Below, in pieces: positions 1,291-16,014 of a stretch of DNA of 20,739 nt. Position 1 is the stretch's first letter, and each line of letters begins with the position of its first letter. Under the pieces are notes generated by a model. That model saw only the letters and a list, made by a program, of their open reading frames with translations. It was not told the DNA's origin and searched no databases. The translations under genes were made by a program, and so were the position numbers. The stretch lies in the IMG/VR virus record IMGVR_UViG_3300009001_000118, positions 1-20,739 of that record; one strand, given 5' to 3'. The stretch comes from a virus.

Positions 1291-3219
1291 CTAGAGCTTT
1301 GACTTCAGCTCATCTATTTGCAACTGCTGTTCTTTAACAGCTTCTATTAATAACGCGACAATTTTTTCATAACGTACGGCTTTATAGCCATTATCTCTGT
1401 CGGTGACTAACTCCGGTAATACTTTTTCTATTTCCTGAGCTATTACTCCAACATCGTGTCCTTCGTGTGAATGAATACCTTCTTTAGGTATCCAATCAAA
1501 CTCTACACCATTAATATAAGAAAGTTTTTCCAAAGGATCTTTAATATTAACGATATTTTCTTTTAATCTTTTGTCTGATGAATAAAAAGCAGTTATATCA
1601 TTTGTAGCTCTGATTTCTCCAGTAACGCTTGATGCTGCAGTACCAACTCCAAAGCTATCTACTTGTACATCGTTGAATTGCACATCTGATGATGTCTGTA
1701 AATCTTTTACATTAACGTCTACTCCATTGAGTGCAAGTGTACCTTGAGTTGAACCTTCTGCAGATGATGAAATTAAACCAGGTGTTGTTCCACTTGCAGC
1801 TTCTAATGTTTCTATTCTTGTGCTAAAAGAACCACTATCGGCGGCAAAAGATCCTGTTATGATTTCCCCTGTTAATGATCTAATTAAAGTAGCATTAACT
1901 CCTAACGAACCTGATATACTATTCCCTGTTAATGATCTAATTAAAGTAGCATTAACTCCTAACGAACCTGATATCTCATTAGCTAGTTGAATAGATGAGG
2001 AAACAGTTGCTGTTGGAAGGTTAGCAATAGTTTGTGCAGAAGATGATACAACTCCAGTAGGAAGGTTAGCAATAGTTTGTGCAGAAGATGATACAATATT
2101 TGCCGGTAAAGATGAAATTACTTGAGTTGAGCTAGATATTATACTGTCACCTTCATTCTTAAGAAAACCTAAATCATCAATTTGCTGACTACTTGATACT
2201 AGCCCACCTCCTTGTAGGGTAGGGAAACCAAAATCAGTAATTTGCTGACTACTTGATACTATACCTGTAATTTTAGAGTTTAAATGATCTGCTGAGAATG
2301 AGCCGCTTATTTCTACAGATATTTGATCAGAAGAAGATATTATATTAGCTCCTAGTCCCCCTATAGCATCGTTGGATAATGAACCTGATATCTGATTGGA
2401 TATTTGATCAGATGAAGATATTATATTAACCCCTAGTGCTCCTATAGCATCGTTGGATAATGAACCGGAAATCTCATCAGATATTTGGTCTGAAGATGAG
2501 ATTAACGTTTTACTATTAAGTGTGTTTATAGCAGTTTCGTGTGACGAACTAGCTGCAAATAAAGTTGTAATAGATGTTTCGTGAGAGGCGCTTGCATCAG
2601 TAAGGGTTGCTATTGGAATAGCAAAGGAAGCTGATTGTGCTAACCTAACCCAATTGCCACTATGTGCATAGTATGCTGATCCTGTAGCATGTACGTGAGC
2701 AAACATTCCATGGTAGGTTGTAGCTGAAGGTAGATCGTCAAATTCATTAAAGTGAAATCTAATCTTACTAGACATTCCGGTAGAGTCGATTTCTCCTGTA
2801 ATCGTAGACGAACCGGATATAGTTTGACTGCCAGATAGTATCTGTGATCCTGTTATTAGAAGGCTTCCAGTTATTTGATGAGTATCGTTACTGTCGTCTC
2901 CAAAAATAGTTGAACCAGATTCAAATATAGTAGATGAAGAAATTATTTCTGTATTAAATTGCTGTGCTGTAATGTCTCCTGTAACTAAAAGTGAACCGGT
3001 AATAGAGGCTACACCTGTTGTTGATGAACCACTGTATCCAACCCAGGTTGGTTTAACATCTATTTGTTTTTCGGCTCCAGAACTTTCTGAAGTAAATAAA
3101 GTCAGTTGCCCGGTAGTAATATCTACCGAAGCGGAATTTATAAAATTCCTTAAATTATTATCCATCTCTGATTGAGTCAGAGCTGAACCTTTTGCTATCC
3201 TAAGAGTTATCTGAGACAT
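1291..3219 (-). CDS. Tail fibre with C-terminal S74 intramolecular chaperone
   Basis: This 642-residue protein is a probable receptor-binding fibre. The N-terminus has the motif KGSALTQSEMDNN (residues 10-22), common at the start of phage tail proteins (usually GSxLTxxEMDxN). The middle, about residues 90-500, is Ser/Gly-rich with repeated ISSS, SGS and SSSAQ units, including 27-, 19- and 15-residue near-perfect tandem repeats. This is typical of a trimeric shaft. The last 95 residues form a peptidase S74 chaperone domain: SSDKRLKENI with Ser548, Asp549 and Lys553, then GVIAQEIEKVLPELV and a C-terminal coiled coil. In this family the domain trimerises, helps fold the fibre and then cuts itself off just before the Ser; Ser548 and Lys553 match the known Ser-Lys dyad spacing. 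The S74 call is firm; adhesin function is inferred from architecture and from its place at the end of the tail genes. Confidence 0.92.
   Translation of the reverse strand: MSQITLRIAKGSALTQSEMDNNLRNFINSASVDITTGQLTLFTSESSGAEKQIDVKPTWVGYSGSSTTGVASITGSLLVTGDITAQQFNTEIISSSTIFESGSTIFGDDSNDTHQITGSLLITGSQILSGSQTISGSSTITGEIDSTGMSSKIRFHFNEFDDLPSATTYHGMFAHVHATGSAYYAHSGNWVRLAQSASFAIPIATLTDASASHETSITTLFAASSSHETAINTLNSKTLISSSDQISDEISGSLSNDAIGALGVNIISSSDQISNQISGSLSNDAIGGLGANIISSSDQISVEISGSFSADHLNSKITGIVSSSQQITDFGFPTLQGGGLVSSSQQIDDLGFLKNEGDSIISSSTQVISSLPANIVSSSAQTIANLPTGVVSSSAQTIANLPTATVSSSIQLANEISGSLGVNATLIRSLTGNSISGSLGVNATLIRSLTGEIITGSFAADSGSFSTRIETLEAASGTTPGLISSSAEGSTQGTLALNGVDVNVKDLQTSSDVQFNDVQVDSFGVGTAASSVTGEIRATNDITAFYSSDKRLKENIVNIKDPLEKLSYINGVEFDWIPKEGIHSHEGHDVGVIAQEIEKVLPELVTDRDNGYKAVRYEKIVALLIEAVKEQQLQIDELKSKL
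1857..2510 (-). repeat. Tandem in-frame repeats in the fibre shaft
   Basis: Three repeat families lie in the shaft-coding region. A 51-base sequence is identical at 1867-1917 and 1924-1974 (period 57 bases, 19 residues). A 37-base sequence is identical at 2015-2051 and 2060-2096 (period 45 bases, 15 residues). A 27-residue unit beginning ISSSDQIS recurs with an 81-base period, with starts near 2318, 2399 and 2480 on the plus strand; one copy is diverged. All periods are multiples of three, so copy number can change without breaking the frame. Identity at the DNA level points to recent duplication. Confidence 0.9.
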
Positions 3220-5984: not shown

Positions 5985-7001
5985 TCATGTTATTAAGTTA
6001 CCAGATTTAGCAACTACCAGTCCAGTTTGATCTGTTGTGACCACTACTCCTGTTTCAATATTAAATATTTTACTATTTACTAATCTAGAGTATCTTCTAG
6101 TATTATTATCGTAGGTATAAACAAAGTTTCCTATTTGAGGTATACTAGAGAAAGAAGATTCAGTAGCTGATGAACTAATTATTTTTGTATTGTCAAAATT
6201 AAAGTAAATTTGTTCTATAATTCTTTCTTGCGGGCTTATACTAATAATAGCGGTATTATCAGCATCTTCTTTATGTATAGAACCTTGAAAAATAAGAAAC
6301 GATAAACCAGGGTCATCTCCAACTGCACTTCCGCTTGTAAGTTTAGTCCCGTTATACCTAGCATTAATAAGTCCGGAATCTGTATAATTGGAATCTTGAA
6401 CACTTGCTTTTTGAGCTGATCGATTTATAATAGCTTCGTAATTCTTAGGATTTATTTGATCTTCGTTTCTATCTACTACAAACCTAAAAGAATTAGCTTC
6501 TAATTGTGTAGCGTTACTGAGTAATGGTTCAAAATCTGAGTTAGTAAAGCTACCAATAATTAATGGATTTAAAAGCACTGATTCGTCATCCGTACCAGCT
6601 GGAATGTTATTAAAAGAACCGTTTTGATCTGAAGTATAAGAACCGCTGCTGTTAGTGAAGCTTTCGCTTACAAAAGTACTATCATCACCGAGTACAAATG
6701 TTTCATTATTTATATAGCTCGACTCTTCGATTTGAATAAAATAATATCCGCTTTTTCTAGTTTTTTGTGAAACCTTAAAAACAACTTTATCAATACCTTC
6801 AGGAGAATTTTTTTTATTAATAGTAAATTCGGTTAGCTGTTGTAATGAGTTTTCTATATTAAATCCATTACCACTTTCAAATGGTATATTAGCACCAATA
6901 ATAGTAAAGTTACCACTATCCGCAATAGATTGAGAATAGAGAAGGTTTATTGTACCGTCTTGAGGTTTAGTATTAGAAAATTCAAATATACTTATTGGCA
7001 T
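5985..7001 (-). CDS. Putative tail/baseplate structural protein, unknown family
   Basis: This 338-residue protein starts MPISIFEFSNTKPQDGTINL. I do not recognise its family. It is rich in Ser, Asn, Ile and Thr and lacks signal peptides, membrane helices and catalytic motifs. Repeated short hydrophobic stretches separated by Asn/Ser/Gly loops suggest a beta-rich fold. A segment near residues 110-150 (FTNSSGSYTSDQNGSFNN and after) is low-complexity Ser/Asn. It lies five bases after the stop of the 497-residue Hint protein, in a region where every recognisable gene encodes tail parts, so a virion role is inferred. The leader GATAAATAAAAGGT is the closest thing to a Shine-Dalgarno in the window, but AGG sits only about two bases before the ATG, too close for normal use. 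Confidence 0.75.
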   Translation of the reverse strand: MPISIFEFSNTKPQDGTINLLYSQSIADSGNFTIIGANIPFESGNGFNIENSLQQLTEFTINKKNSPEGIDKVVFKVSQKTRKSGYYFIQIEESSYINNETFVLGDDSTFVSESFTNSSGSYTSDQNGSFNNIPAGTDDESVLLNPLIIGSFTNSDFEPLLSNATQLEANSFRFVVDRNEDQINPKNYEAIINRSAQKASVQDSNYTDSGLINARYNGTKLTSGSAVGDDPGLSFLIFQGSIHKEDADNTAIISISPQERIIEQIYFNFDNTKIISSSATESSFSSIPQIGNFVYTYDNNTRRYSRLVNSKIFNIETGVVVTTDQTGLVVAKSGNLIT

Positions 7002-7006
7002 ACCTT

Positions 7007-8500
7007 TTATTTATCGTTATGGGTTAAAATACCGTTTGCATAATAAACATCGTCAGTTTCAATATTTAATTTATAGATTCTTACACTCCCAGGTTCTGTT
7101 TCTTTAGAGGAAATTATAATTTCGTTTCCATTAATATCAAGGAATATATCTCCTACTACAACCTGTTGTGCATTGAGTAATCTCCATTCTCCTGCTCTTT
7201 TAATAATATGAACATGAGAAGGTGTAGTTTTTAAAGCTCCGTCATTGAAGTTATATATACTTGTAACTATTTTCGTTTCATTTGAAACTACTAAAGCAGT
7301 GCTAAAATCTCCAGTTATATTGTCAGCTCTCCAATTGTCCATAGCTACTGGTCCGTCATCTGAATCAGGTATAGAATTAATATTTCTAGAAAGTACAGGA
7401 TCTCCTACTACTAGGGTTTCCACAGCAACTGATGAGCTTGGAGATGTGCTAATCTGTGTTCCTTCTATAACACAAGCGCAAAGACCTACTAAATACGCTG
7501 AACCTCCATAGAACCAACATTCGTCTCCTTCATATCCAAAGTACCCGGTATCAATTGTACCTGTTCCTGTTTGTGATGTGTATAAAATTGTACCATTCGA
7601 TAGGGCAAGATCTTCATACCATACCTCGGTTGACTCTTCCGTTGGACAGGCATCGGTACAGTCATTAGAACCTACATTCCATACAAGGTCAAAGTATCTT
7701 GTTGGCCCTGGACTATTAGATGGAGTTATAGGTGGTGTTGTAGATACTGATATAGGTGGTGTTTTAGATACTGATATTGATATAGATGGTGTTTTAGATG
7801 GTGATGGTGGTGGTGGAGTACTTGGTGGTGTATTCGGAGGAGTATTTGGTGGTGTACTCGGAGGTGTACTCGGAGGGGTATTCGGAGGTGTTCTAGTAGG
7901 GGATATTCCTGGAGTTACTGATATTGTGGGTGTAACAGAAATAGTTGGAGTTATTGATATTGATGGTGTTGCAGTTGCTGGCGGGGTATTCGGAGGTGTA
8001 CTCGGAGGTGTGTTAGGGGGAGTACTAGAGGGTGTTTTAGTTACTGATATTGTGGGTGTTATAGTAGGTGTTATCGATATTGTGGGCGTAACGGATGGAG
8101 TAATAGATGGAGTAACAGATACTGTAGGTGTTGGTGAGGGGGTAGCACTAGGTGTAATCGAAGGAGAGGGTGTAGGGGAAGGTGGGATATAGGTAAATCC
8201 ATTTGTACAGTTACTAACGCTTCTAAAGATAAATTGAGGACCCGAAACAGAGGTTGTTAATCCTACTCCGTTATTAAGGTTTTCTTTAGACACTACATCT
8301 GTGTATGTTATTCCATCTACAGTAATATCTTCTAAATACGAGTCGGTATCATCAAAAGGGTTATGGACTAATAAATCAACACCTGGTTCGCCGGCTTTTG
8401 CTGAAAGTACTTCACTATTAAGATATACTTCAAAAGGACCTGCGTCAGCTATATTGCCGATAATATTATTTCTTGCTCCTTTTACTAGATAAACTGCCAT
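7007..8500 (-). CDS. Tail protein with Pro/Thr mucin-like repeat and C-terminal Hint (intein-like) domain
   Basis: This 497-residue protein has four parts. Residues 1-105 form an unrecognised N-terminal domain, presumably the virion attachment. Residues 106-267 are an almost pure Pro/Thr/Ser/Ile/Val repeat (TPSITP, TPTISVTP and TPPNTPPSTPP units). Residues 268-340 are a small Cys/Gly/aromatic spacer domain. Residues 343-495 are a Hint domain: it starts CVIEGTQI (Cys343), has the block-B motif TPSHVH, then VVVGDIF, and ends YYANGILTHN. Hint domains of inteins, hedgehog proteins and bacterial intein-like (BIL) proteins use the first Cys for an N-S acyl shift and the final His-Asn for C-terminal cleavage. 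Only Asp-Lys follows the Asn, so splicing is impossible; cleavage or transfer of the N-terminal part to a nucleophile is expected. The module is shared with the upstream gene. Chain-scission activity is inferred from motifs. Confidence 0.85.
   Translation of the reverse strand: MAVYLVKGARNNIIGNIADAGPFEVYLNSEVLSAKAGEPGVDLLVHNPFDDTDSYLEDITVDGITYTDVVSKENLNNGVGLTTSVSGPQFIFRSVSNCTNGFTYIPPSPTPSPSITPSATPSPTPTVSVTPSITPSVTPTISITPTITPTISVTKTPSSTPPNTPPSTPPNTPPATATPSISITPTISVTPTISVTPGISPTRTPPNTPPSTPPSTPPNTPPNTPPSTPPPPSPSKTPSISISVSKTPPISVSTTPPITPSNSPGPTRYFDLVWNVGSNDCTDACPTEESTEVWYEDLALSNGTILYTSQTGTGTIDTGYFGYEGDECWFYGGSAYLVGLCACVIEGTQISTSPSSSVAVETLVVGDPVLSRNINSIPDSDDGPVAMDNWRADNITGDFSTALVVSNETKIVTSIYNFNDGALKTTPSHVHIIKRAGEWRLLNAQQVVVGDIFLDINGNEIIISSKETEPGSVRIYKLNIETDDVYYANGILTHNDK
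7248..7476 (-). other. Hint domain core of the 497-residue protein (first half, nucleophile to mid-domain)
   Basis: This segment codes for the start of the Hint domain. Cys343 is encoded at 7472-7474 and sits five residues before the conserved Thr in CVIEGT, the usual spacing for the intein A block. The following SPSSSVAVETLVVGD corresponds to the loop and strand in which Hint proteins carry a V-x-x-L-x-x-G-D pattern. The domain then continues through the block-B TPSHVH (around 7210-7227) to the terminal His-Asn at 7013-7018, so the full domain spans 7013-7474. Confidence 0.75.
7700..8188 (-). repeat. Pro/Thr/Ser codon repeat (mucin-like linker 1)
   Basis: About 160 codons encode Thr-Pro-Pro-X and Thr-Pro-X-Ile/Val-Ser units. 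On the plus strand this reads as irregular GGNGTN runs. Synonymous third positions vary freely between copies (ggt, gga, ggg, ggc), so the repeat is kept at protein level rather than being a fresh DNA duplication. The product should be an extended, flexible, protease-resistant stalk. It includes one run of four consecutive prolines, which usually needs elongation factor P. Confidence 0.9.
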
Positions 8501-8509
8501 TTTACTTTA

Positions 8510-8518
8510 TTATAAATA
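8510..8518 (-). promoter_or_regulatory. Candidate late promoter element TATTTATAA
   Basis: The 42-base gap between the two Hint-protein genes contains TATTTATAATAAAGTAAA directly before the ATG at 8500. The core matches those at 5952-5960 and 19153-19161. TATAA begins 14 bases before the start codon. If transcription began about 10 bases downstream of it, the message would be almost leaderless. Proximity to the start means the element could instead act as an A-rich translation leader. Confidence 0.35.
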
Positions 8519-8542
8519 TTAATATACGGAATAAATTTTAAT

Positions 8543-11500
8543 TTAATGTACTCCAATTTCTTGATTATGAGTTAAAATACCATTAGCGTAATAAATATCA
8601 TCTGGTTCTACATCTAAGCTGTATATAGTAAATGAACCTGTTTGTGCTGTAATATTAGTTATTTCTACTAAGTCTCCATTTATATCTTCGAAATAATCTC
8701 CTACTTGAACATTTAAAGAATTAACTGCCAACCACTCACTACCTCTTTTAACTATATGAACGTGTGATCTACTAGTACGTAGAGTGTCATTATTAAAGCT
8801 ATAGACAGTACTAATTGAAGAAGAAATATTAGAAGTAACTAGAGCAGTACTAGCTGATCCAGTAATATTATTACTACTCCAAGTTTTAAGTTGTTCTTTT
8901 GTAAGATCGTCGTCTAAAGATTCTATATCTTTAGTTAATATGGTATCACTCACTACCAGATTTTCGACCGGTACCGATGAGCTTGGGGAAGTATGTATTA
9001 GGGTTCCTTCAACAACTGAGAAACATTCTGAATAATAATAAGGAATACCTCCAGCGGTTACTTCGTAGGCAGTCCCATCATCACCATTAAACATATAAAA
9101 CCCTGGATCAATAGTACCGCCGCCTGAAGCAGCGTCATATATTGCATTACCTTCTGTGAATCCTCCTTCACTGTAGTAAGTATCGGCGAAGATATCATCA
9201 CATGCATCAGTATCAAAAGCATGCACTCCGGTACCTGAGAATCCTGTTAAAGTAGGTGGAGTTCTAGACGGTGTAACTGGTGGTGTTACGCTGATAGATG
9301 GTGTTGCAGTTGCTGGTGGGGTACTCGGAGGAGTAGTAGATGGTGTAACTGGTGGTGTGTTTGGTGGGGTACTCGGAGGTGTAACCGGTGGGGTACCCGG
9401 AGGTGTATTCGGCGGACTGTTTGGTGGTGTACTTGGTGGTGTGACTGACGGTGTAACCGGTGGGGTACCCGGTGGGGTACTCGGAGGTGTATTCGGCGGA
9501 CTGTTCGGTGGAGTATTTGGTGGTGTACTAGTAGGGGATGCTCCTGGAGTATTGGATACAGATATAGATGGTGTAATCGAAGGTGTAATCGAAGGTGTAT
9601 TCGGTGGGGTACTCGGAGGTGTACTTGGTGGTGATACTATTGGAGTTCTAGTCGGAGTAACTGAAATAGTAGGTGTGATGCTAATAGTAGGTGTAATACT
9701 AGGAGTAATACTAATAGTAGGTGTAATACTAGGAGTAATAGACGGAGTGGGTGATTGCGGTATAAAGGGTAATACAGAGAAAGCGCAAATAAATGATGCA
9801 TCAAAATTCTCTATATCAAATAAAAGATTAAGTCCAGATTCTTTTGTAAATGTATTATCTGGGGATAGACTTTGATCAGTTACTACAAGCACACTACCTT
9901 CTAGTTCTCCATCAATTTTAGCTACTTCGTAATTGTGATAGTTCTGTATAGCAGAGCCAGAGGGGGTGAGTACTGTCTTAATATAAGATGTACTGCCGCT
10001 AAACGGAGTATCAAATACTCCTCCGTCCCCACTATTTATACTACTTACATTTTGAGACCCGGTATATTCTGGTTGTGTAATAGAACCAGATACTTGTTTT
10101 AATTTACTTCTATTTAGAGCATTAGGTTTTATTATAATACCAACAGAAGCGTTAGTCCTAGCAGGAATATAATCTTTTATGGATTTAAAAAGTGTATTAT
10201 CAAAAAATCTTATAAGGTTTACGAAATCTCTTATATCGTACCTAGAGTTAGTAGATGTATACTCTTCTAAAAGACCCTGTAGACCGGTATACTTAGTATT
10301 GAACTCATCAGAAGGAGCGCCTATATAATCATCTATATTTAGTCCACCAGCAGCTGATGCTGAATTATAAATTTGTATGTTTTCATTATCAGCAGTTGAA
10401 AATCCTACTTCTAAGGTATGTCTAGTTTTAGATCTTTTATTAGGACTTTTGTATATAGAAATATCAGGAGATAAAGTATTTCCTTCTACTATAGAACCTG
10501 TGTGTTGTACAAAAATATTATCTAAAGAAGATGAAATTAATGCTAAAGAGCCAGTAATGTTTTCTTCCGGGGATAAGTATACATTATCTGAAAATTCAGA
10601 TTCATTCGGTGTTTCTGTATTCCCATGTAACCTTATAGTAAGTATGTCTGAAGGTATACCATAGCAGTTACTTAGCGCTCTCAACCCTCTTTCTGTACCT
10701 TTAGATTTTACTAAATAAGGTAGGTTGTGATAGAGCCTCTTATATACTTCTTGAGCATATGCCTGTTTAGGCATTGGTTGTAGATATTCATTACTTCCAG
10801 CAGATGCTGTGATGTAAGTCGCTCCTGCGTTAGTGCTGCCTGAGGTGTACTCTTGTCCTGTAAAGAAGCTGAATAGATTTTCTAATGATTCGTTACTTGA
10901 GTATAGTTTAACACCAAAGCTTCTTAATGCATCTCCTACAAGTTCTTTAGATATACCGAAATCTAGTCTATTATCATTATCGTATTTGTCTGTGAGTGCT
11001 TTTTGATAAACCCATATATTATCAAAGTGTTGACCAAGCATATAGATAAAAGTAAGTAGCTGGTTATTATCAGCATCTTCTCTTATAAAAGCAGGGATCG
11101 TGTTAGTAAGTGAATTAAAATTTGATGTATCAAAATTAGATGCAGATGCTATATTACTATTAAACCAAGATAAAGTAGATGCTTCGCTACTACTTACTAA
11201 TGTGTACGGTCTAGATGTATTAGATTTAGGCCAAGAGTAAGAACTACTTTCATAGTATAGGAATCTATCATAATGATCAAAGTTGTTTATTACCCCTGTT
11301 AAAAGGTTTTCATACTGCTCTATACTACCGGTAATGTCAGAATTATTTGCTCCTTGGCTTTTAAGAGTAGCTATACTGCCGCTGTAAGATTCTAATAGCT
11401 GCAGTTTGTATTTAAAGTTTCTGAGTCTTTCCTCAGCAGAGCCAAAATGTACAAATTCTGAATAGTCAGTATGATCTATACTTACAATTGATCCGCTTTC

Positions 11501-12340
11501 GTTAGTAAGGGACATTAACTCATAATAAGAGCTAGTTACAGGGTAACTGAATAGTTCATCGAGGTTAAAAAATTGACTAGGTGTACCACTAAGATCTTCG
11601 GTATCTATATCAAAATTAGGTCCAGCAAGCTTAGGGTATACTACCTCTTCTGGTATTACTTCTCCTTGAACTTCATAAGCTAAAGAATCACTTATAAATT
11701 CTACTATACTACACGTATCTCTTACTCTAAATGAGTCGGGTAGTGGTTCATAAAGTTTTACTAATACCGCTCTTTTATTTCTATATTCCTCAGTAGATAT
11801 GTTTATACATACTACATTAGTGTTATTTAAAAAGTTAAGTTTAAAATCGCTAAAATAAGATTCAGAATCAAGAGCATCTCTAATACCTGTAGCTGTCTGT
11901 AAGACGAATTCATTAGGTAATTGAGTAGTAAGCAGCCTTATTTCTTTTCTATCTCTTGATATAGACTCTATATAAAAAAGAGGATTCTTATTTGTAGGGC
12001 TAAATAGATTATTAATAAAATTATATACTAATCTTACTCCACCAGAGTTGTATCCTAATGTTATGGCGTCTTGTACTGGATCTACATTGATTGTAGATTC
12101 TCCAGATTTTCCAGCACCTGCCGCAGTTTGAAGAAAAGAGTACCCTTTATAGTTATAATCAGATTTAAGTAAAGTACCTGTTTGACTATAAGCATGTAGC
12201 TCAATAGAGTTATTATTTACCGAAAAAGTATTATTAACTTTAAAGTCACCAAAGAGTAAAACATCTTTAGGCTGAAACCTATTGATATTAGTAACCTGTT
12301 CAGGAAATAACGGTATTACTTTAAAATCTATTTTAGCCAT
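8543..12340 (-). CDS. Large baseplate/tail protein (gp7/gpI-like core) with Pro/Thr repeat and C-terminal Hint domain
   Basis: This 1265-residue protein combines a structural body with the Hint module. Residues 1-860 are a tail/baseplate part. Near residues 525-575 it has YKRLYHNLPYLVKSKGTERG followed by LRALSNCYGIP, resembling the GT-x-x-ALR region of P2 tail protein I and its relatives; FFDNTLFKSIKDYIPARTN (about 710-730) is another stretch I associate with marine-phage baseplate proteins. Its place two genes after gp6 suits a gp7-type wedge role, an inference. Residues 861-1031 are Pro/Thr/Ser repeats, 1032-1105 a small Gly/aromatic domain, and about 1106-1259 a Hint domain ending YYANGILTHN. 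Six residues (QEIGVH) follow, with Gln at +1, so no splicing is expected. Where the neighbour has its nucleophilic Cys, this copy has Ser1108 (SVVEGT), with Cys1106 two residues earlier. The start overlaps the upstream stop in ATGGCTAA. Confidence 0.83.
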   Translation of the reverse strand: MAKIDFKVIPLFPEQVTNINRFQPKDVLLFGDFKVNNTFSVNNNSIELHAYSQTGTLLKSDYNYKGYSFLQTAAGAGKSGESTINVDPVQDAITLGYNSGGVRLVYNFINNLFSPTNKNPLFYIESISRDRKEIRLLTTQLPNEFVLQTATGIRDALDSESYFSDFKLNFLNNTNVVCINISTEEYRNKRAVLVKLYEPLPDSFRVRDTCSIVEFISDSLAYEVQGEVIPEEVVYPKLAGPNFDIDTEDLSGTPSQFFNLDELFSYPVTSSYYELMSLTNESGSIVSIDHTDYSEFVHFGSAEERLRNFKYKLQLLESYSGSIATLKSQGANNSDITGSIEQYENLLTGVINNFDHYDRFLYYESSSYSWPKSNTSRPYTLVSSSEASTLSWFNSNIASASNFDTSNFNSLTNTIPAFIREDADNNQLLTFIYMLGQHFDNIWVYQKALTDKYDNDNRLDFGISKELVGDALRSFGVKLYSSNESLENLFSFFTGQEYTSGSTNAGATYITASAGSNEYLQPMPKQAYAQEVYKRLYHNLPYLVKSKGTERGLRALSNCYGIPSDILTIRLHGNTETPNESEFSDNVYLSPEENITGSLALISSSLDNIFVQHTGSIVEGNTLSPDISIYKSPNKRSKTRHTLEVGFSTADNENIQIYNSASAAGGLNIDDYIGAPSDEFNTKYTGLQGLLEEYTSTNSRYDIRDFVNLIRFFDNTLFKSIKDYIPARTNASVGIIIKPNALNRSKLKQVSGSITQPEYTGSQNVSSINSGDGGVFDTPFSGSTSYIKTVLTPSGSAIQNYHNYEVAKIDGELEGSVLVVTDQSLSPDNTFTKESGLNLLFDIENFDASFICAFSVLPFIPQSPTPSITPSITPTISITPSITPTISITPTISVTPTRTPIVSPPSTPPSTPPNTPSITPSITPSISVSNTPGASPTSTPPNTPPNSPPNTPPSTPPGTPPVTPSVTPPSTPPNSPPNTPPGTPPVTPPSTPPNTPPVTPSTTPPSTPPATATPSISVTPPVTPSRTPPTLTGFSGTGVHAFDTDACDDIFADTYYSEGGFTEGNAIYDAASGGGTIDPGFYMFNGDDGTAYEVTAGGIPYYYSECFSVVEGTLIHTSPSSSVPVENLVVSDTILTKDIESLDDDLTKEQLKTWSSNNITGSASTALVTSNISSSISTVYSFNNDTLRTSRSHVHIVKRGSEWLAVNSLNVQVGDYFEDINGDLVEITNITAQTGSFTIYSLDVEPDDIYYANGILTHNQEIGVH
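8564..9025 (-). other. Hint domain of the 1265-residue protein (variant active site)
   Basis: The domain runs from Cys1106/Ser1108 to Asn1259. Compared with the copy in the neighbouring gene, the order of motifs is the same: VEGT, SPSSSVPVENLVV, SHVHIVKR, VQVGDYF, and DIYYANGILTHN. Two conserved positions differ: the expected first Cys aligns with Ser1108, and the block-B Thr three residues before His is Ser (SRSH instead of TPSH). Ser can replace Cys in some inteins, so activity may persist but with altered chemistry. Confidence 0.75.
9247..9760 (-). repeat. Pro/Thr/Ser codon repeat (mucin-like linker 2)
   Basis: About 170 codons encode TPSITP, TPTISITP, TPPNTPP and TPPVTPPSTPP units, followed by the spacer and Hint domain. 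The composition and unit order resemble linker 1 at 7700-8188: Ile/Ser-type units come first, then TPP-type units. A few short stretches are nearly identical at DNA level, for example the ggggtacccgg segments around 9388 and 9464 (plus strand), so local duplication has occurred within an otherwise diverged repeat. Confidence 0.9.
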
Positions 12341-13786: not shown

Positions 13787-15604
13787 TTAAACTGTTATTA
13801 TTCTACCCTTAATATCTGTATCAGGAAATTTTACTTCAAAGAAACAAGGGTCGTAAGATGGGTAGATTACATTATTTCTAGTTGCTCCTTTTATATCGTA
13901 TCCATATTCAGAGTAATTACCTCCTACTTTATTTACTATTTCTAACTTCTGTACTGTTTGAACCCCTTTTACTCTGTCTATAACTGTAGTAACTCTAGCT
14001 AAATTTATAGGTTGATTTATATTTCTATTAGCTGTAATAAAATACTCTTTTAATTTTTGTATACAGTCTAATAGTACCTGCCTACCTGTATAACTTGGTA
14101 AAGCTAATACTTCGAATTCTATCCCAATATTTACTATAAAGGCATCTTTTATGTTTATACTATCAGATATCATCATGTATTGGGATAAGTAATTCTTTAA
14201 GTTTCTCTTAAGATTATCAGTTGAATAGATAAGTTTACTATTGTTATCGTAGGCTAAAGTGTATAAAGATAGTGAAAACGGATTATCGCTTACTAAGGAT
14301 GTACCTGCTTCATCCGCTGTTGCTTCATCTTTAGTTACATATGTTTTAGCAATTGTACCAAATTTAGCAGGTAAAGATTGTGCTCTGACGTTATAATCTT
14401 GTAATGTTACTGCTCTTCCTTGTTCATTAAACGAACGTAGTGAGTTTTCTCTAATCTCTTGTATTGAGTCTCCATCTTTTCCTCCTGTGGCTGGTAGGGG
14501 ATTAGTGAATGCTAAAGTTCCTTCATAAGAAGAGTCAGTAGCTGTAGCAGATACTATAGATTGTTGAGTTATCGTACCGGCGGGTACATTAGCGTTTATA
14601 CCCCCTCCTTTTAGGTAAGTGATAGTAAGAGTGGTGTTGGATGGTGCTACACCGTATGTACGGGAAAATAAAAAGTTTGAGGGATCGTACGAGTAATCGA
14701 TTCTTGATAAACCATCTGCGTTTCCAATACCTACGTTAGTAGGGTTTGGGATTATAACTGAATCGTCAGATTCGCTTATTCCTGCACCGAATTGTATCTG
14801 TAGGTTACCGTTAGAGTTAAATCTAGTAACAAATCTGTAAGGTACTTTTTTCAAGGTAAGTTTATTGGCTACTTCACTTGAATCGTTTTCAGTGTTAGCT
14901 TCTTCGTCAAATACAGTTTCTTGTCCTAGATAAGGTACTTCAGTCCAGGTGTTGTTTTCTGAATCGGTAATAGAGAGTATACCTATAATGTTGTCATCTT
15001 CTAGAGATATTGTTTTAAATTTTTCAGCGTTGCCTATTACTTCAGTTAGTGTTGCAACTTCTCCTGAGAAAGCTTTTGCTTTTTTCTTGAGTGTGTATTC
15101 AGCAGGATTCCCTCCGGCAATAGATGCTACTGTTATAGTTGTAGGATCGTAAGAGCTGGAAAAGCTAAAGTCTATAGAGTGATCGATTAAAAATGCTGGT
15201 TGTCCGGAAACGGTTGCTTTTACTTGGGCGTTAGCTGCTATTAAAAGAGCTTGGTCAAAATTAGGTTCGTAGTCTGCTCCGGTTGCTGCAACGTTTTGGG
15301 TTACTTCGAGTTCAACTTCAGATACCGTAGTTACTTTAGGTCTGTACCCTAATGTGTAAGCTAATGAATATAGGTTTTCTGGGTTTTTAGCATGTTGTAC
15401 AAAGGTCTCTTGTAGCTGTGTATCGGAATAAAAAGATAGTACATCTCCTACGTATGCGGCCATCTCTATAAACATCATGCCGGGTGATGTTGGGGAGAAG
15501 TCATTATAGGTGTCTGGGAAGTAGTTTTTTGCAAATTCTATTAATGAGTTTTTAAAATCGTTAAAATCCCTATTAATATACTTTATGTCTCTTAATTCTT
15601 TCAT
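13787..15604 (-). CDS. 6: Baseplate wedge protein, gp6/baseplate J-like
   Basis: This 605-residue protein is a T4 gp6-type wedge subunit. In the baseplate inner ring gp6 dimers tie neighbouring wedges and trigger sheath contraction. The N-terminal INRDFNDFKNSLIEFAKNYF and SPTSPGMMFIEMAAYVGDVL (residues 38-57) followed by SFYSDTQLQE are hallmarks of this family in marine T4-like phages. The baseplate-J-type motif IRENSLRSFNEQGRAVTLQD occurs near residue 400. The C-terminal third (EFEVLALPSYTGRQVLLDC and FPDTDIKGRIITV) fits the J-type end domain. Length is close to T4 gp6 (660). Its ATG overlaps the gp25 stop by a single base, as expected for adjacent wedge genes made together. The assignment is firm on motif and context. 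Confidence 0.93.
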   Translation of the reverse strand: MKELRDIKYINRDFNDFKNSLIEFAKNYFPDTYNDFSPTSPGMMFIEMAAYVGDVLSFYSDTQLQETFVQHAKNPENLYSLAYTLGYRPKVTTVSEVELEVTQNVAATGADYEPNFDQALLIAANAQVKATVSGQPAFLIDHSIDFSFSSSYDPTTITVASIAGGNPAEYTLKKKAKAFSGEVATLTEVIGNAEKFKTISLEDDNIIGILSITDSENNTWTEVPYLGQETVFDEEANTENDSSEVANKLTLKKVPYRFVTRFNSNGNLQIQFGAGISESDDSVIIPNPTNVGIGNADGLSRIDYSYDPSNFLFSRTYGVAPSNTTLTITYLKGGGINANVPAGTITQQSIVSATATDSSYEGTLAFTNPLPATGGKDGDSIQEIRENSLRSFNEQGRAVTLQDYNVRAQSLPAKFGTIAKTYVTKDEATADEAGTSLVSDNPFSLSLYTLAYDNNSKLIYSTDNLKRNLKNYLSQYMMISDSINIKDAFIVNIGIEFEVLALPSYTGRQVLLDCIQKLKEYFITANRNINQPINLARVTTVIDRVKGVQTVQKLEIVNKVGGNYSEYGYDIKGATRNNVIYPSYDPCFFEVKFPDTDIKGRIITV

Positions 15605-16014
15605 TATACTTCAAAGTTAATAGCTACAGTATCTTCTATACCTGTATCCTGTATTTGATATCTCATACTAAATGTAACGGTGTTACTATCCGGGCTTCCT
15701 ATTGTGTTTATTGTGACTGGTTGAACTTGAGGAAAATAGTTACGTAATGAATCTCTCACTTCTCCGTCTATAGCTTCAATATTCTGCTGTGATATATTTT
15801 CAAATAATAAATTACGTAAACCTGTACCAAATGTTGGGTTGAGAAATCTTTCTCCTTTTCCTGTTAAAAAGAAATTTATAAGGTTATTCTTTATAGCATC
15901 TTTAGTTGCAAAAGTAGAATTAAACACTCCAATTCCTGTAAAAGGAAGAGACACTCCAATTGCTTTACGTGGTTGGAGATCTAAAGGATTAATTTTTTTT
16001 GCTTCAAATGCCAT
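15604..16014 (-). CDS. 25: Baseplate wedge protein gp25 (GPW/gp25 family)
   Basis: This 136-residue protein matches the GPW/gp25 family, whose members sit at the inner baseplate ring, bind gp6 and gp53, and seed sheath polymerisation. The signature TGKGERFLNPTFGTGLRNLL lies at residues 51-70, including the conserved Glu-Arg and Pro-x-Phe-Gly-x-x-Leu. The N-terminal GVSLPFTG and FNSTFATKDAIKNNLINFFL are typical, and the C-terminus forms beta strands (TFSMRYQIQDTG). Length is normal for the family (T4 gp25 has 132). The ATG is preceded by CAGTATA without a Shine-Dalgarno sequence, and overlaps the preceding stop by one base (TAATG). The gp25-gp6 order is conserved in many contractile-tail systems. 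Confidence 0.95.
   Translation of the reverse strand: MAFEAKKINPLDLQPRKAIGVSLPFTGIGVFNSTFATKDAIKNNLINFFLTGKGERFLNPTFGTGLRNLLFENISQQNIEAIDGEVRDSLRNYFPQVQPVTINTIGSPDSNTVTFSMRYQIQDTGIEDTVAINFEV

Follow-up and report, generated by a model that had tools for sequence, protein, structure and literature searches.

Why should two neighbouring tail proteins of a phage both end in a Hint domain? Two decades after bacterial intein-like (BIL) domains, which have this fold, became known, the reason why proteins carry them is still mostly unclear. The two proteins considered here, P1 and P2, are encoded by the IMG/VR virus record IMGVR_UViG_3300009001_000118, which was analysed over its whole length of 20,739 bases (the window). 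Sequence comparisons and a structural model suggest that this uncultured phage processes its own tail appendages while maturing, probably by cutting them or by joining them chemically. The first-pass annotation of the DNA had pointed to two adjacent virion proteins with unrelated N-terminal parts and a common C-terminal module, read as a mucin-like stalk with a self-processing Hint domain; the observation was confirmed, and its interpretation partly supported.

The P1 and P2 genes lie 42 bp apart, both on the minus strand, and their reading frames and coordinates were found to be right. The N-terminal parts of the two proteins are indeed unrelated, and the common module consists of a Pro/Thr/Ser stalk, a tip domain of ~75 residues and a Hint domain of ~153 residues (Table 1). 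The Hint regions align over their full length at 50% identity (blastp, E=2e-50), and their likeness is therefore not due to chance. Among the motifs listed as shared, VEGT is found in P2 but reads IEGT in P1. The segment between stalk and Hint, initially described as a spacer, is common to both proteins, but it is really a small conserved domain, marked by the invariant motif DAC...GTID.G...GD...GG..Y...C, and Hint-less relatives end in it as well; among solved structures its sequence found no match, the only hit being one to adiponectin at 0.01 that spans 22 columns. The DNA of both stalks is a degenerate 12-nt-periodic repeat with no clean duplicated block. The Bacteroidota O-glycosylation motif, Asp-Ser/Thr, requires Asp, and the stalks contain neither Asp nor an N-x-S/T sequon; the epithet 'mucin-like' is thus unsupported, and a glycosylated mucin stalk was rejected. 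Long antisense open reading frames (ORFs) rich in Gly-Gly-Val run across the stalks on the plus strand (7578-8192 and 9357-9875) and are taken as by-products of the 12-nt repeat.

In single-sequence searches, P1 and P2 remained below the cut-offs of Pfam PT-HINT and Hint_2, the nearest curated family being PT-HINT (PF07591; 17.4 and 16.7 bits versus a cut-off of 27.7), and NCBIfam intein_Cterm was above cut-off for P2 only. A five-sequence profile hidden Markov model (HMM) found the BIL domain 2lwy as the best solved structure (2e-6). The AlphaFold2 model of the P1 Hint (predicted local distance difference test, pLDDT, 85.6) adopts the horseshoe all-beta fold of the superfamily. In VIA-align, with rows less than 1 apart regarded as tied, its top match was the BIL2 domain of Tetrahymena BUBL1 (6y75; Z 19.4, 1.6 A, 135 residues), followed by CthBIL4 (2lwy; Z 18.1), inteins (17 and below) and Hedgehog (1at0; Z 16.5); Foldseek retrieved 57 PDB hits at E<=0.001 (2lwy, E 3e-9). 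The best structural matches in BFVD are phage proteins with no other name than 'Hint domain containing' or 'Fibronectin type III', and an open-access literature search found no paper on C-terminal Hint domains of phage tail proteins. With the profile and the model in agreement, the Hint fold proposed at first pass can be considered settled, BILs being its nearest kin.

The residues of the active site are those of the superfamily, namely, Cys343 with His429 of the block-B motif T426-x-x-H429 in P1, and Ser1108 with the aligned His of SHVH in P2; the site is intact, as had been predicted, but residue 1 of P2 is Ser rather than Cys. As in A-type BILs, the domain ends in His-Asn (His494-Asn495 in P1) with no Cys, Ser or Thr at position +1 (HN-DK in P1, HN-QE in P2) and occupies a variable region of non-conserved proteins, its presence differing on one and the same gene among relatives. 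The A-type BIL CthBIL4 shares with the phage domain the fold, Cys1, the block-B Thr-x-x-His and this terminus, whereas the phage Hint is found at the extreme C-terminus of tail-region proteins behind a stalk and a tip, has Ser1 in P2 and carries Lys or Arg at +1/+2. Unlike the BIL2-bearing BUBL1, the phage proteins lack ubiquitin-like domains. The Hog module of Hedgehog is likewise a C-terminal Hint with Cys1, but the phage Hint keeps the terminal Asn and has behind it no sequence for a sterol or adduct recognition region, for which reason Hedgehog-like sterol transfer was rejected. An intein would be followed by the rest of its host protein, starting with Cys, Ser or Thr at +1; here, +1 is Asp or Gln and, as first observed, only two and six residues trail the domain. 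The accompanying statement that splicing cannot occur was too strong, since A-type BILs are able to splice without a +1 nucleophile (PMC4031507), although splicing would join only a dipeptide or a hexapeptide to P1 or P2.

Residue 1 was absent from the search patterns, one of which (ANGILTHN) did include the terminal Asn, and in 68 non-redundant relatives drawn from viral and bacterial contigs it is Cys in 64, Ser in 4 and nothing else. Three of the four Ser1 cases belong to the clade of the window phage. Their codons are AGT in P1 of loci L009 and L010 and TCA in P2 of the window, as compared to TGT or TGC for Cys elsewhere; because there are two types of Ser codon, the exchange of Cys for Ser took place on two or more occasions, each time yielding the other residue capable of an acyl shift. 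The block-B His is kept in 13/13 clade members. The ratio of nonsynonymous to synonymous substitution rates (dN/dS) of the Hint region is 0.13-0.48, and in every compared pair the tip is less identical than the Hint. Judging from these comparisons, the Hint evolves under purifying selection in this clade while the tip diverges faster, and the active-site residues are not only intact but also selected.

The P2 gene provides a natural experiment, in that a single gp7-like protein occurs in related phages without the stalk (L114, where the protein ends before any stalk), with stalk and tip (L116, L118, L018) and with stalk, tip and Hint (the window, L011, L012); in L009 and L111, the gene is cut by contig ends. 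The Hint-less proteins stop 2-3 residues past the last tip Cys (FCII, MCMI, FCTI, CGFE), and residue 1 of the Hint-bearing proteins, where the cut is predicted, falls 0-4 residues past the same Cys. Since both ends lie so near this Cys, a cut at residue 1 would leave a C-terminus of the Hint-less type. The P1 gene follows a different course, with the Hint being present in every relative seen. P1 orthologues are flanked by the gp7-like and MPIS-IFxFSN genes in L009, L010, L011 and L013, and more divergent ones occupy the same place in L003, L005, L006 and L018. P2 Hints from four phages group in a clade of their own (support 99/96), and therefore both Hint copies are old and separately kept: the module is shared, as initially described, but not recently duplicated. 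Recent tandem duplication was accordingly rejected in view of this grouping by orthology, and the identity table shows no sign of P1-P2 gene conversion. Elsewhere, a Pro/Thr/Ser tract also ends the P1-adjacent gene (L009:2509-3741, L010:5462-6646, L011:3799-5001, L013:691-1863), the counterpart of which in the window (5985-7001) is devoid of such a tract; by sequence, the tract seems to move between neighbouring genes.

Given that the predicted cut falls close to where the Hint-less homologues end, these observations fit best with P1 and P2 being stalked tail appendages of the baseplate region from the tips of which an A-type-BIL-like Hint would remove itself, a reading to which we give an even chance. 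The Hint would fold first, whereupon Cys343 of P1 or Ser1108 of P2, aided by the block-B Thr/Ser-x-x-His, would attack the preceding peptide bond in an N-S or N-O acyl shift. The tip would then end in a (thio)ester, which could be resolved by water, a small thiol or an amine, and the terminal His-Asn could cyclise, shedding the tail of two or six residues, so that the mature appendage would end at the tip domain, like the Hint-less relatives. The purpose of such cleavage would most likely be the removal of a cap or folding aid at assembly. If functional, the Hint would give phages, in addition to S74 and comparable chaperones, a second device for the self-maturation of tail fibres. Further support comes from recurrence: the same C-terminal Hint is found behind unrelated stalks, including ~900-residue TSKSTTTTW repeats (L024, L025, L029, L035), FFSPPG repeats (L045, L066) and collagen-like tail proteins of the isolated phages SNUABM_5, Afa-NA1 and NCTB, which suggests repeated recruitment. 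Several points weigh against self-removal. The conservation of His-Asn is partly built in by the pattern ANGILTHN; the synonymous divergence (dS) is near saturation in several of the pairs behind the dN/dS values; the homology between the tips of Hint-bearing and Hint-less proteins is weak, albeit significant (profile E about 5e-4 to 7e-4); and a simple cap leaves unexplained the Lys or Arg just behind the Asn.

Indeed, 12 of the clade's 13 Hint proteins end in His-Asn-X-Lys/Arg-stop, compared with a final Lys or Arg in 0/45 other ORFs of the same loci. When the sequences were clustered at 70% identity, 31/42 clusters had Lys or Arg at +1 or +2 after the Asn and 3/27 at +3 or +4, the relatedness of the sequences in these counts causing Fisher values to overstate significance. 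Lys is also carried by matches found with the HMM only (HN-VK-stop in L140, HN-TK in L141). As a control for Lys at +2, PT-HINT was searched in 148 Bacteroidota genomes, which yielded no match above cut-off and thus makes a poor control. The Lys could either be the acyl acceptor, given that a Lys is what BIL2, the top structural match, joins by an isopeptide bond (PMC8616854), or tune the cyclisation of Asn. The former option would entail covalent ligation, in which an amine, from a Lys beside the terminal Asn in cis or on a neighbouring subunit, or from a partner protein, attacks the (thio)ester of the tip and fixes the appendage in the virion by an amide or isopeptide bond; we regard ligation as unlikely but as the foremost competitor of self-removal. 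In view of the conserved Lys, the covalent-transfer hypothesis is at its best with an amine as acceptor, and a Lys acceptor would bring protein-ligation chemistry to phages. Against it, P1 of L009 and L010 has Arg, a poor acyl acceptor, in place of Lys, which favours a role for charge, and the Hints of the jumbo phages NCTB and SNUABM_5 mostly lack the Lys. Furthermore, P2 of the window has no Lys: its X-Lys-stop seems to be gone, the frame reading on to QEIGVH, and it has Ser1 as well. This copy has possibly changed or partly decayed, and it may work differently or less well. The specific version whereby the Lys behind the catalytic Asn, its own or that of a neighbour, accepts the acyl group, so that tips are cross-linked or tagged without ATP at virion maturation, as in BIL2, is decidedly unlikely.

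The Hint might also simply stay at the tip as a folded cap or as a trimerization or folding aid, its autocatalysis being weak or irrelevant. Another fibre of the same virion region carries a C-terminal S74 chaperone, and some relatives retain 25-44-residue tails past the Asn, but a purely structural role explains neither the restriction of residue 1 to Cys or Ser in 68 sequences nor the repeated exchange between these two chemistry-capable residues, and we consider retention rather unlikely. A selfish mini-intein or decaying intein remnant, with which the domain shares its fold and which recalls the true inteins with +1 Cys caught by the same search (L048, L076, L079, L080), is improbable: there is neither a substantial downstream extein nor a homing endonuclease, and the Hint sits at variable C-termini instead of conserved sites, both copies being kept as orthologues among relatives and under purifying selection. 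Finally, release of a C-terminal toxin in the manner of polymorphic-toxin PT-HINT, the nearest curated Pfam family albeit below cut-off, is hardly credible and was rejected for the window, which encodes neither a toxin domain behind the Hint (only two or six residues) nor an immunity gene.

The minus strand holds all real genes of the window, arranged as in the baseplate region of T4-type phages: gp25-like, gp6 wedge, two small genes, P2, P1, more tail genes and the S74 fibre. The tail context assumed for P1 and P2 is thereby corroborated by the nearby gp6 and gp25-like genes; a PHROGs search gave no match for either protein. S74, the chaperone of endosialidase, is also a C-terminal self-processing domain of phage fibres, with a fold and chemistry unrelated to Hint. 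Among cultured phages, the closest is Flavobacterium phage immuto, which comes from the Baltic Sea and shares 58% identity in gp6; this points to a marine member of the Bacteroidota, probably a flavobacterium, as the likely host. The gp109 gene of immuto, like that of P2, comes after the baseplate wedge gene, and its product is 45% identical to the N-terminal 833 residues of P2.

Table 1. Features of the P1-P2 locus and its surroundings (window positions).
Feature	Positions	Strand	Evidence
P1, tail-region protein, 497 residues	7007..8500	-	ORF; orthologues in relatives
P1 N-terminal domain, residues 1-104, unknown fold	8189..8500	-	63-82% identity in L010, L009, L011
P1 Pro/Thr/Ser stalk, residues 105-267	7700..8188	-	Composition scan; 12-nt periodic DNA repeat
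P1 tip domain, residues 268-342	7475..7699	-	Conserved throughout the relatives; homologous to the C-termini of gp7-like proteins that lack a Hint
P1 Hint domain, Cys343-Asn495	7016..7474	-	AlphaFold2 model; fold match to BILs; HMM match 2lwy; catalytic columns
P1 dipeptide Asp-Lys behind Asn	7010..7015	-	X-Lys/Arg-stop in 12/13 clade Hint proteins
P2, gp7-like baseplate-region protein, 1265 residues	8543..12340	-	ORF; similarity to immuto gp109
P2 N-terminal structural part, residues 1-862	9755..12340	-	Conserved among phages irrespective of stalk and Hint
P2 Pro/Thr/Ser stalk, residues 863-1030	9251..9754	-	Composition scan; 12-nt periodic DNA repeat
P2 tip domain, residues 1031-1107	9020..9250	-	Conservation in relatives
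P2 Hint domain, Ser1108-Asn1259, Ser1 variant	8564..9019	-	NCBIfam intein_Cterm above cut-off; 50% identity to P1 Hint; Ser codon TCA
P2 hexapeptide QEIGVH behind Asn, no X-Lys-stop	8546..8563	-	
gp25-like gene	15604-16014	-	
gp6 wedge	13787-15604	-	PHROG 219, E 2e-21
S74 fibre	1291-3219	-	E 6e-16

Beyond the clade of the window phage, the jumbo phages NCTB (BN7874_132, 135, 136) and Erwinia phage pEa_SNUABM_5 (gp108) carry C-terminal Hints, annotated as Hint or intein, on repetitive tail proteins, in neighbouring genes; they show 25-26% identity, have other stalks (collagen-like in SNUABM_5) and mostly do without X-Lys-stop. The TSKSTTTTWNT repeat stalks reach up to ~1000 residues before the Hint (L024:2310-5588, L025, L027, L029, L035), and proteins of the L024 type bear behind it a 25-44-residue tail that is mostly Cys-rich; the 150 kb phage of L024 encodes a second, unrelated protein with a Pro/Thr stalk and Hint (L134:340-2004). 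On Flavobacterium chromosomes, FN3-Hint or short Hint proteins, sometimes in two copies, are encoded beside S74 fibre genes (L089-L108), in what are probably prophage tail regions. A large-phage protein of ~915 residues (L053:3162-5903, also L062, L070, L075, L081, L084, L086-L088) contains 3-4 head-to-tail Hints, with exactly two residues (SP, RA, KA in L053) between each His-Asn and the next Cys1 and with HN-Lys-stop at the last, and may be a polyprotein made of Hint units that processes itself. Lastly, letter-identical collagen-Hint tail proteins are found under different named hosts, in Alcaligenes phage Afa-NA1 (L144:3032-4462) and Salmonella phage Sen-NF (L145:2032-3462), two records that may be mixed or mislabelled assemblies.

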